Both the position numbers and the translations under genes were made by a program. From positions 1,662,567-1,726,566 of the forward strand of contig NC_014804.1 in the NCBI RefSeq assembly GCF_000151105.2: a DNA stretch of 64,000 nt. Reading direction: 5' to 3'. Origin of the DNA: Thermococcus barophilus MP (GTDB lineage Archaea > Methanobacteriota_B > Thermococci > Thermococcales > Thermococcaceae). The notes under the pieces were generated by a model. The model was not told where the DNA came from and did not search any database. It saw only the letters and a program-made list of their open reading frames with translations. Within the stretch, counting starts at the first letter, position 1. The number at the start of each line of letters is the position of its first letter. This document shows positions 19,555-45,595 of this stretch, piece by piece.

Positions 19555-20133
19555 TCACTTTTTAAGGATTTCCCCAAGTTTTTTCAGCAACTTTAATGCC
19601 TCTTCATCTCTTCCTATCTCTGCCATGCTGAGCCATTCAATGGCATGGATTATGTCCTCATTTGAAAAGTCCTTAAGTAGCTCTTCCTTTTCTTCAATTT
19701 CCTTGGAGATTTTCATTTTGTATTCATGTTCCTTTTCAAGTATCCTGTCCATTGTGTTGAGTAGCTCTTCTTCATCGAATTCGTACCCAAGAGCTTTGAA
19801 TATGTCAAGCTTTGTTTTTAATCTTGATCTTGCAAAGTACCTCAGCTCTTCATCCCCAAGGTAGAGGTTTATGTAAAATGCGTCGGCTGTTCTGCCGTAA
19901 TACTTTTCAACGAGGTTCCCTTTCATCTCTGTTCTTTTAACCTCAACCAGTCCAGCTTCTTTAAGCTTTTCAATGTGGTGATACACTGTCTGTGGTGTTT
20001 TGCCGAGAATTTCAGAAAGCTGGGAAATCGTCATTTCCCTGTTCCTTAGGAGTTGAAGTATTTTCCTTCTTGTGTCTTCAAGCATAAGCTTGATGACCTT
20101 TGGATCGGTAATCACTTTGACTTTCTTACTCAT
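19555..20133 (-). CDS. ArsR-family winged-helix regulator heading the operon
   Basis: 192 residues. The winged helix (about 8-80) contains LEDTRRKILQLLRNREMTIS then TPQTVYHHIEKLKEAGLVEV. A tyrosine-rich segment (KYYGRTADAFYINLY) and a long coiled-coil C-terminal region (about 125-192) suggest dimerisation. The ATG at 20133 has GGTGATCGAA upstream. The promoter carries the perfect inverted repeat AACGTTC-N12-GAACGTT at the predicted transcription start, so autoregulation is likely. Ligand unknown. Confidence 0.88.
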   Translation of the reverse strand: MSKKVKVITDPKVIKLMLEDTRRKILQLLRNREMTISQLSEILGKTPQTVYHHIEKLKEAGLVEVKRTEMKGNLVEKYYGRTADAFYINLYLGDEELRYFARSRLKTKLDIFKALGYEFDEEELLNTMDRILEKEHEYKMKISKEIEEKEELLKDFSNEDIIHAIEWLSMAEIGRDEEALKLLKKLGEILKK

Positions 20134-20150
20134 TTCGATCACCTAATTTT

Positions 20151-20176: not shown

Positions 20177-20244
20177 TCTGCAATATAACCTTTTCGGGTT
20201 TTCACATCCAACGAGTTTGCTAACCACTAAAGACTATATTTTTG

Positions 20245-20327
20245 ACATTTTTCTTTTCACAAGCCTTACCTTTTAGGGCGGGGTACGGTGTTCTGCAAAT
20301 TAGCCATTAAGCAGGAAAGCAACACTT
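20245..20327 (+). mobile_element. Solitary 83-bp copy of the IS200/IS605-type left end
   Basis: This stretch matches the segment just upstream of tnpB (45360-45442 on the minus strand). Both are exactly 83 bp. They share acatttttctttt at one end, a central cttttagggcgggg, and ggaaagcaacactt at the other end; the interior is diverged. No transposase gene or right end is present here. It is either a relic after loss of an element or a small non-autonomous copy. It lies between the ArsR promoter and the promoter of the acyl-CoA synthetase gene. Confidence 0.7.
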
Positions 20328-20376
20328 AGGTAAAATTTAAATTTGGAGTGGGAGAAAGCAGAACGGAGGTGGAAAA

Positions 20377-21768
20377 ATGAACTTAGAGTTTCTATTTTAC
20401 CCCAGGAGTGTTGCTGTGATAGGAGCATCGCATGTTCCGGGCAAGATAGGCAATGCGATAATGAAGTCAGTAGCGCGGCAGTTCAATGGGAAGATCTATG
20501 CTGTCAACGTTAAGGGTGGAGAAATTGAAATTAATGGACAAAGGTTCAAGGTCTACAGAAGTATTCTTGAGATTCCAGATGAAGTTGATGTTGCTGTCAT
20601 AGCTATTCCAGCCAAGTTCGTCCCCGATGTCATAGATGAGTGTGGACAAAAGGGAGTTAAGGGGGCAATAGTTATCTCGGCTGGATTTAAAGAAGCTGGG
20701 AGGGCTGATTTGGAAGAGGAGCTCGTAAAGAGAGCAAGAAAATGGGGCATTAGAATTGTAGGTCCAAACTGTCTTGGAGTTACAAACCTTGAGAACGGCT
20801 TTGACTGTAACTTCAACCCACCAGAAAGACAGGCAAGGCCAAAATTTGGTGGTATTGCTTTTATGAGCCAAAGCGGTGCTTTTGGCGCTGCAATTCTTGA
20901 CTGGGCTGCAAAGCACAATGTGGGAATGAGCAAGTTCATCAGCTTAGGTAACATGGCAGACTTGGATGAGAGCGACTTTATGAGCTATTTAAAGGATGAC
21001 CCCAAGACAAAAGTCATAACTGCCTATCTTGAAGGTGTCAAAGATGGCAGGAAATTCTTCAAAATTGCAAGGGAAACAACCAAAGCCAAGCCCGTAATAA
21101 TTTTAAAGGCTGGGAGAACTGAGGCGGGAGCTAAGGCAGCTGCTTCTCATACTGGCTCACTTGCGGGAAGTTATGCAATATATGAAGCAGCATTTGAGCA
21201 GACTGGTGTTTTAAGTGCAAAAAGCATGAGACAGCTCTTCAACTATGCAAAAGCCTTAGCCATGCAGAAGCCAGCAAAAGGGGACAGAATTGCCATAGTC
21301 ACAAACGGTGGCGGCGCTGGTGTTATGATGAGTGATGGATTGCTTGAGAAAGGGCTTAAGCTCGCTCAGCTCAGCGATGAAACTAATGAGAAGTTCGCAA
21401 AAGCCATAGAGGAAGGAAAGCTGCCTCACCACATGAGCTATAAAAACCCAATTGATGTCATTGGAGATGCTCCGTCAAAGAGGTATGAGTTAGCTATGCG
21501 CTATGCTTTGGAGGATCCAAATGTTGACGTTCTTGTCGTCATTGCTTTGTTCCAGAGCCCAGCGCTCGATGAAGGAATTGTTGATGTTATGGAAAAAGTG
21601 CAAGAGTACGGGAAGCCAATAGTCTTCGTTGCTCCCGGTGGAGAATATCCGGAGAAAATGGCGCGCAGAATCGAGGAGAAAGGGGTTCCTGTATTTGAGA
21701 CCGTCGAGGATGGAGTAGACGCGGTTTATGCTCTGGTTAAATATGGAAAGTATTTGAGTGAGGTTTGA
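20377..21768 (+). CDS. ADP-forming acetate/acyl-CoA ligase, alpha subunit
   Basis: Converts an acyl-CoA plus ADP and phosphate to the acid and ATP, the substrate-level phosphorylation step of Thermococcales peptide and sugar fermentation. At 463 residues it is the usual length of a separate alpha subunit. The CoA-binding Rossmann domain begins FYPRSVAVIGASHVPGKIG; succinyl-CoA-ligase-like domains follow, with FMSQSGAFGAAILDW and AASHTGSLAGSYAIYEAAF, whose His is the conserved phosphorylated residue. The beta subunit is not adjacent, as is common in the order. A TATA-like taaaatttaa is at 20331, and GGAGGT lies seven bases before ATG 20377. Which of the several isoenzymes this is cannot be told. 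Confidence 0.94.
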   Translation: MNLEFLFYPRSVAVIGASHVPGKIGNAIMKSVARQFNGKIYAVNVKGGEIEINGQRFKVYRSILEIPDEVDVAVIAIPAKFVPDVIDECGQKGVKGAIVISAGFKEAGRADLEEELVKRARKWGIRIVGPNCLGVTNLENGFDCNFNPPERQARPKFGGIAFMSQSGAFGAAILDWAAKHNVGMSKFISLGNMADLDESDFMSYLKDDPKTKVITAYLEGVKDGRKFFKIARETTKAKPVIILKAGRTEAGAKAAASHTGSLAGSYAIYEAAFEQTGVLSAKSMRQLFNYAKALAMQKPAKGDRIAIVTNGGGAGVMMSDGLLEKGLKLAQLSDETNEKFAKAIEEGKLPHHMSYKNPIDVIGDAPSKRYELAMRYALEDPNVDVLVVIALFQSPALDEGIVDVMEKVQEYGKPIVFVAPGGEYPEKMARRIEEKGVPVFETVEDGVDAVYALVKYGKYLSEV

Positions 21769-43972: not shown

Positions 43973-44060
43973 AAACCGGACTGACCTCCCCCCTGCCGCG
44001 AGGGGTGAAAGTTCAGCTTTAACTCCTCGCCATTGGCAGGGAGGTTTGAGGGGTCTCATT
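43973..44060 (-). ncRNA. Candidate omega RNA of the TnpB element
   Basis: TnpB-associated guide RNAs span the 3' end of tnpB and the right end. Here the sequence from the last tnpB codons through the two hairpins (arms 44001-44005/43990-43994 and 43985-43990/43967-43972) fits that plan. The guide would then be the leftward-read flank starting AAAAATATTA. Extent and transcription are inferred from family knowledge. Confidence 0.45.
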
Positions 44061-45326
44061 CCAACCCAATTCAAAGCGGGCCTTCGACCCCCCTGGCCGG
44101 GTCTTCGGCCAGTTACCCCTCTCTTGGGCAAGCAAACCACCCAAGTTCGGGGTTATGGTTTTCACCTTGCGCAAAATGTTAAACGCTCCAACCAAGTCTG
44201 CATTGAAAACAAGCCCCTCTGTGGGACACTTAAACAACCCACGAACGAAGCGAGCCCCTTCGTGGGGCTTCCCACAGAGGGGGCAAAGCTGAGAAGTGAA
44301 AGCCTCATTCACCAAAATGACTCGAATACCATACTCTTCAGAGACTTCGGTTAAGCGTTTAATAACAGTATTGAACCGCCAAATATGAGAGAGAATGAAA
44401 TTCTGCTTTTTACCTCTTTCAGAATTCCTTGCAATTTCCTTTGGGTAACCGACCACGATTTTACTGACGCCCAAATCGTAGAGTTTTTTAACCGTTTGCC
44501 TCACGGCAGTATTAATGTAATGCTTCGCTTGAAGTTTGGCCTTCTCATGCATTCTCTTAAGCTTCCTGCTCTTCTTTGCTCCAGACTTGTTGAGTTTTGA
44601 TTGATACTCAGCAATTCTCTTCCTCCAGTAAAAGTCGATACTCTTTAACGGTCTTCCATTCATGAGGAAGCTTTCACCGTTTTCAGCGTAAACGGCCATT
44701 AAGTTGTTCACGCCCAAGTCAATTCCTGCCGAAAGGTTGCCCAATGGTTCCCTTGGGACTTTAACCCATTCTTTACCCTCAAGTTTTTCCTCGACCGTGA
44801 GGCTTAGATGAGCGTACCACTTCCGCTTTACCCAATCATAAGTGATTTCCAACCGCCCTTGCTTGCCCTTCAAGTGTATTCTGCCCTTGAACTGGATTTC
44901 AAGGCGTTTGAATTTACCAAGGCCTTTGAGGATTAACCTGTTCCCCTCAATCCGATACTGGTCGTTTCTGAGGACGATTAAGGGCTTTCTCCTCCCGTCT
45001 TCTTTCAGGTAGTTTGGAGGTTTCGGTTTTAGCCAAGAGGGAAGTTCTCCGTTCCGCTTCTTCCGAAGGAGGGAGAAGAAACTTCTCCAGCTTTCAGCAT
45101 TCTTCCTGCAGATTTGTTGGACGGTTGCAGAACCGATTTTCTTCTTAAACTCTTCATAAACGGTTTTTTCTGTGCCATTAAAGTCCACGATTTTGCCCTC
45201 GAAGAATTGCTGTCTTCTCAGATAGTTCACCCTGTTCCATGCTTTGGCTCCGAGGTCTGCTAACTCAGAAAGGATTTTTGTCTGCTCTTTGCTCGGCTGG
45301 AGTTTGACTATTACTGTTCGCTTCAT
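44019..45326 (-). CDS. tnpB: RNA-guided endonuclease TnpB
   Basis: 435 residues, the Cas12 ancestor encoded by IS200/IS605 elements. RuvC residues are in place: D203 (GIDLGVNNLMAVY), E341 (VNEAFTSQLC) and D377 (FNADLVGAFNIL). The zinc ribbon between them has CPLCG (C348, C351) but the second pair is reduced to one cysteine (C367, FKCPTEG), with H355 as a possible fourth ligand. The C-terminal tail after 390 (GNWPKTRPGGSKARFELGWN) is Pro/Gly/Trp-rich and typical of Thermococcales copies. No frameshift is visible, so it could be active. ATG 45326. Confidence 0.93.
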   Translation of the reverse strand: MKRTVIVKLQPSKEQTKILSELADLGAKAWNRVNYLRRQQFFEGKIVDFNGTEKTVYEEFKKKIGSATVQQICRKNAESWRSFFSLLRKKRNGELPSWLKPKPPNYLKEDGRRKPLIVLRNDQYRIEGNRLILKGLGKFKRLEIQFKGRIHLKGKQGRLEITYDWVKRKWYAHLSLTVEEKLEGKEWVKVPREPLGNLSAGIDLGVNNLMAVYAENGESFLMNGRPLKSIDFYWRKRIAEYQSKLNKSGAKKSRKLKRMHEKAKLQAKHYINTAVRQTVKKLYDLGVSKIVVGYPKEIARNSERGKKQNFILSHIWRFNTVIKRLTEVSEEYGIRVILVNEAFTSQLCPLCGKPHEGARFVRGLFKCPTEGLVFNADLVGAFNILRKVKTITPNLGGLLAQERGNWPKTRPGGSKARFELGWNETPQTSLPMARS

Positions 45327-45427
45327 CTCAAATTATAGTATGATTTTTAGGCTTTAAAAAAGTGTTGCTTTCCCGCTCAACTGTTGGTTTTAGAATTTCT
45401 GCATCCCCGCCCTAAAAGACGAGGCTT

Positions 45428-45595
45428 TCAAAAGAAAAATGTAACAAGAACTCGGTCTTCATTTTGTGATATTTCTGCTACTTTTTCATCGCTAATTCCA
45501 GGATTTAGCTCAGTTATTGATATTATATCAAATCCTTCCTCTCGCAGTTTTTTCACGACTTTCAATGGAATGTTCTCATCAGCTAGAAATTTCAA
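45428..45595 (-). pseudogene. 5' remnant of a DUF5615 (PIN-like) toxin gene
   Basis: TTG 45595 (preceded by GGAGGAGGAAT) opens MKFLADENIPLKVVKKLREE, then GFDIISITELNPGISDEKVA and EISQNEDRVLVTF, the N-terminal half of a DUF5615 protein including the conserved D-E-N. It breaks off exactly at VTF, where D-K-D-F-G would follow, and ends after FF at TGA 45428 inside the TnpB element. The toxin is therefore truncated at about 55 residues. Confidence 0.82.

Follow-up and report, generated by a model that had tools for sequence, protein, structure and literature searches.

What is left when one end of a transposable element stands alone in front of a host promoter? Directly upstream of an acyl-CoA synthetase gene of Thermococcus barophilus MP lies a short sequence that resembles the left end (LE) of a tnpB insertion sequence, 25 kb from an intact element of this kind. 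It was found in a sequence-only reading of the window, the stretch of 64,000 nucleotides analyzed here, which offered three options: a scar, a miniature element, or a domesticated promoter or hairpin. The genome is archaeal and comprises 2.06 Mb in two contigs (2,010,078 and 54,159 bases). The sequence is a genuine transposon scar, the solo LE of a known element family, and not a device. The first option is supported by an empty site in a sister genome and by the bare state of the LE core.

The insertion and its empty site

When the site was searched across the genus together with its flanking sequence, the query was split into two neighboring matches in genome G006, which is empty at this locus. 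The alignment reads ACTATATTTTGACTTAGGTAAAATTTAAATTT in G006 and, in the window, ACTATATTTTTGAC, a 79-bp insert and TTAGGTAAAATTTAAATTT in succession. There is flanking identity on both sides of the empty site, and the flanks join exactly save for a single homopolymeric T. The two bases AC could be assigned to either end of the insert; since elements of this family go in on the 3' side of the target, the insert is naturally read as 20247-20325 (Table 1). The insertion follows a fixed short motif without target duplication, TTGAC-insert-TTAGG being found against TTTTGAC-TTAGG in the empty site. The 83 bp at 20245-20327 that had been proposed as the LE therefore keep their identity and lose part of their extent, as the outer AC and TT are target bases, 2 bp of flank on each side, and not element.

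An uninterrupted TTTGACYTARGTAAA precedes the acyl-CoA synthetase gene in G001, G002, G003, G004 and G006, and none is present in the T. barophilus genome, which together with the empty site of G006 makes the insertion a derived event of the T. barophilus lineage. In the sample, a single species carries the remnant. A motif scan of the genome contigs for the empty promoter named one relative, Thermococcus sp. GB_MAG1_027. A 29-mer from the remnant interior found nothing in the genome contigs, a set that possibly does not include the remnant's own genome, and the 92-bp site found nothing in a plasmid collection. On the right side, the acyl-CoA synthetase gene is the first gene after 20325, with neither tnpA nor tnpB before it, and the remnant is not accompanied by a right end (RE) motif, consisting of a hairpin plus AGGAGGTCAG, in agreement with the initial observation that neither gene nor right end adjoins it. 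Its last element bases, GCAACAC, are joined straight to the native flank, which begins at 20326.

Table 1. Features of the remnant, its surroundings and the intact tnpB element of the window
Feature	Position	Strand	Remarks
Insertion: bare LE core of an IS200/IS605-type tnpB element	20247..20325	+	79 bp; absent in G006
TTGAC target (left-flank) motif, kept from the pre-insertion site	20242..20246	+	TTTTGAC joins TTAGG in G006
CAAG guide-like tetranucleotide, 5' of the LE hairpin	20260..20263	+	co-varies with the target motif
LE hairpin CCTTACCT-TTTA-GGGCGGGG, decayed	20264..20283	+	one A-C mismatch, G-T wobbles; from alignment A2 and pair counts
Third conserved block GGAAAGCA, closing the LE core	20314..20321	+	GGAAAGC in 53/68 gene-linked copies
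Native right flank TTAGGTAAAATTTAAATTT, including TATA-like box of the downstream gene	20326..20344	+	conserved in G001, G002, G003, G004, G006
Acetate/acyl-CoA ligase (ADP-forming type) alpha subunit gene	20377..21768	+	TIGR02717 E=1e-160, PF13607, PF13380
Divergent ArsR-like winged-helix regulator gene, upstream of the remnant	19555..20142	-	PF12840, PF01022
RE of the window's intact element, hairpin ending ...GGGGGGAGGTCAG	43981..44007	-	similar terminus AGGAGGTCA[GT] after tnpB in ~30 other copies
tnpB of the window's intact element, 435 aa	44019..45326	-	PF01385, PF07282; NF040570 guided_TnpB 186 bits
LE core of the window's intact element, TTAC/AAAG subgroup (comparison sequence)	45362..45440	-

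Left ends of the tnpB family

The similarity to the tnpB-adjacent end of the window is well above background: the alignment of 20247-20325 with the LE at 45360-45442 (minus strand) scores 54, whereas 2000 dinucleotide-preserving shuffles reach 27 at most, and the same match is recovered by genome-wide BLAST (E = 3e-7). The CTTTTAGGGCGGGG block occurs exactly twice in the genome, in the remnant and in the LE of the window's tnpB element. That the similarity is a product of chance, or that the remnant is host sequence unrelated to an insertion sequence, is scarcely credible in the face of the shuffle test, these E-values and the empty site of G006; nothing was found in its favor.

The closest kin in the genome is the LE of an internally deleted tnpB element at C1:491430 (86% identity, E = 4e-24, alignment score 114). 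The implied tie to the tnpB copy 25 kb away, which shares 76% identity, accordingly gives way to this nearer relative. The interior, first described as diverged, is so with respect to the window's copy, which belongs to another subgroup (TTAC/AAAG), but is identical to the C1:491430 LE over GGGGTACGGTGTTCTGCAAATTAGCCATTAAGC. There are at least four LE-tnpB loci in the genome (C1:491441, 758855, 1707932 and 1793387), one of them the window's tnpB; those at 758855, with an open tnpB, and 1793387, with a frameshifted one, were added by a covariance-model search. Decay extends to the tnpB copies of this genome, one being internally deleted and one frameshifted.

The intact element of the window (43981-45440) disrupts a gene that is uninterrupted in G006 (L143) and that by eye encodes a DUF5615/PIN-like protein. 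Relative to G006, ~70 bp of target flank are missing beside its RE, which points to a one-sided deletion with or after the insertion and leaves the RE boundary of this element only approximate; its right flank was for this reason dropped as a guide to the exact boundary.

The family was searched in 94 genomes, first with the remnant as query and afterwards with a covariance model of the LE for which 52 copies were aligned, and the flanks of matches were examined. The remnant scores 86.4 bits against this model, which itself includes the remnant copy. The resulting survey, large and not exhaustive, comprises 132 distinct full-length LE cores among the matches listed, 124 of which have tnpB or tnpA within 260 nt downstream. 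This identifies the remnant as one end of such an element, a tnpB element of the IS200/IS605 type, an assignment made by LE homology and by a subterminal hairpin that carries one mismatch. The eight cores without either gene are four at contig ends, three other wrecks and the remnant. One wreck has an interrupted tnpB (L131), and the other two (L056, L098) keep the element promoter or a wrecked tnpB start, so that the remnant is the only bare copy in the 132 cores among the matches listed.

From 5' to 3', the LE core consists of a T-rich tract, a guide-like tetranucleotide, an 8-bp hairpin, an interior and the conserved GGAAAGCA. The hairpin is paired in 95.6% of cells over 52 copies, with far fewer paired when it is slid, and one of its pairs shows a compensatory C-G to G-C change in seven sequences. 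GGAAAGC is found in 53 of the 68 gene-linked LE copies of the first set, with the tnpB start close in 46 and further off in 7; its invariance within alignment A2 is no evidence, that alignment having been selected for the block in question. Nearly all copies end, after tnpB, in a hairpin plus AGGAGGTCAG or AGGAGGTCAT. An interior second hairpin of the remnant (TTCTGC...GCAGGAA), considered as a substitute RE, was set aside; it occurs in the fold of the remnant and not in the consensus fold.

Target and guide vary together. Among 127 copies, 52 combine TGAC with CAAG, 67 combine TTAC with AAAG and 5 + 3 are mixed (Fisher P = 6e-26, uncorrected for relatedness); the counts of the first set, in the same order, were 43, 13, and 4 and 1. 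Among classified copies with a TGAC target, 52 of 55 carry the CAAG guide, and the remnant fits this rule. Because its target and guide agree, the left junction can be taken as an ordinary product of transposition.

Two further features of the family were observed in passing. About 200 nt separate the LE core from the tnpB start in L040, L041, L045, L090, L091 and L191, a spacer that seems to hold a short open frame with a TATA-like box of its own. In genome G083, five LE copies (C4:22320, C5:461144, C5:802410, C5:1095577 and C5:1236638) have identical model scores, which suggests a recently active element.

A probable path from full element to bare end

The reading that we favor, with a probability of about 0.8, is that a full tnpB element inserted and then lost tnpB and the RE, leaving 20247-20325. 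A tnpB-only, TTGAC-targeted element of the IS200/IS605 type inserted 3' of TTGAC, in the region before the promoter of the acyl-CoA synthetase gene, once the lineage had parted from its closest sister genome; the empty site, the target motif and the guide match show this insertion. All that followed the LE core, down to the final base of the RE, would then have been lost, and the LE core now abuts the original right flank. The RE terminus AGGAGGTCA[GT] of intact copies is missing, the hairpin has decayed relative to its relatives, and tnpB copies elsewhere in the genome are in decay too, all of which support a former full element. The relatives show an empty site and none was found with a full element at the locus; the junction is therefore what is observed, and we infer from it the full-length stage and its deletion.

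Two routes of deletion are conceivable. The loss may have been an illegitimate deletion via 1-2 T of microhomology; a plain deletion requires a right breakpoint 0-2 bp from the element boundary, a position that an undirected deletion would rarely hit, and selection for keeping a promoter that starts at the boundary may have helped. Alternatively, a transposase may have mis-excised the element, cutting after GCAACAC inside it rather than after TTGAC and sealing the cut to the right flank, which would give exactly the observed right junction. As the genome has no Y1 transposase (none at E<=1e-3; two are found in G001), a transposase-mediated event would have to be old or driven in trans. It is a long shot that such a product survived owing to TnpB, in which case scars of this LE-only kind would be expected among the products of escape from tnpB. 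Precise excision would restore TTGAC beside a flank matched by the element's own guide RNA, and this type of configuration, the donor joint, is what TnpB cuts in ISDra2 (PMC8612924). An LE core left in place puts GCAACAC, not TTGAC, beside the flank, and the scar, speculatively, would be TnpB-immune and fixed.

The absence of a Y1 transposase bears equally on the suggestion of a miniature element, in which the remnant would be a non-autonomous, LE-only unit of 79 nt mobilized in trans, with GCAACAC as substitute right cleavage site. The normal TTGAC insertion on the left and the exact right junction speak for this, and single-hairpin miniature elements of ~46 bp do exist in Thermococcaceae, a degraded one at C1:1880533 of the same genome; these, however, retain the RE terminus AGGAGGTCAG that the remnant lacks. 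Moreover, no second copy with its right boundary was found in the genome or in the 132 full-length LE cores among the matches listed, and we regard mobility of this kind as unlikely.

Its place would be in keeping with co-option of the LE remnant as a regulatory element of the acyl-CoA synthetase gene, be it promoter, operator spacer or RNA hairpin. It does sit before the promoter, as first described, ~10 bp upstream of the TATA-like box, where it splits the TTTGACYTARGTAAA conserved before the gene in five congeners, and expression of the gene may, judging from this arrangement, have changed. The TATA-like region is nevertheless native and conserved, and the TATA of the element itself is not part of the remnant; the hairpin is mismatched, the DNA of the remnant folds no better than shuffles do (z -0.43), a gathering scan of the window gave no Rfam match, and the remnant is known from a single species in the sample. 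Domestication is on these grounds unsupported and very unlikely.

The downstream gene product scores 535 bits with TIGR02717, just under the curated cut-off of 567. A candidate genome-wide operator, TTTTGACYTARGTAAA, was rejected, being found mostly at just the acyl-CoA synthetase site of each genome, with a reversed-pattern control scoring similarly.

Insertion of a full element followed by loss of tnpB and the RE would leave a remnant that is now inert and decaying, parting TTTTGAC from TTAGGTAAA with the TATA region intact. It is one sharply bounded event, matched by an intact empty site, in which the decay of a tnpB element can be followed in an archaeon without Y1 transposase, and its two junctions limit which sort of deletion could have made it. 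It also carries a caution, in that a lone conserved hairpin ahead of a promoter may seem domesticated yet be plain debris.

Comparison with known systems

Like the tnpB-only (IS1341-type) elements of the IS200/IS605 family, and like IS608 as their biochemical type (PMC5934647), the remnant lies 3' of a short motif, with no duplication of the target. It likewise has a subterminal hairpin with a guide tetranucleotide on its 5' side, and its LE core is homologous to the LEs that precede tnpB. In IS608 the left cleavage site is TTAC and the left guide AAAG (PMC5934647), the pair of the sister subgroup described here, whereas the remnant has TTGAC and CAAG; from complete elements it differs by having no tnpB, tnpA or RE.

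A 46-bp single-hairpin element, which joins the LE hairpin to AGGAGGTCAG and follows either TTAC or TGAC, occurs at scattered sites in Thermococcaceae (L022 in G001, L025 in G006, L026 and L023 in G003, L035, L100, L138, L139, L140 and others). One of its sites, in G006 (1553404), lacks ~200 bp of the right flank when compared with G001. In the T. barophilus genome, a second short LE-hairpin insertion, degraded, follows TTTTGAC from C1:1880533 onward (L024), and the corresponding G006 site is approximately empty. No description of a Thermococcus IS605 miniature element, the 46-bp element included, was found in the literature searched.

The PATEs of Haloquadratum walsbyi are terminal-only IS605 elements that arise by repeat-mediated core deletions, the 1500-bp ISHwa23 being reduced to 52 bp (Dyall-Smith et al. 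2011, PMC3119063). PATEs and the remnant are alike non-coding leftovers of IS605-type elements. PATEs, however, keep both ends fused by deletion between two similar palindromes, whereas the remnant, which stops at GCAACAC with the right end missing and the second palindrome unused, is not PATE-like; the PATE-like ~46-bp elements are the nearer match. As with MITEs, it is short, non-coding and derived from an insertion sequence, but it is a single bare copy without paired ends. The remnant is a further instance of an already known sort of transposon debris, and essentially an ordinary one.
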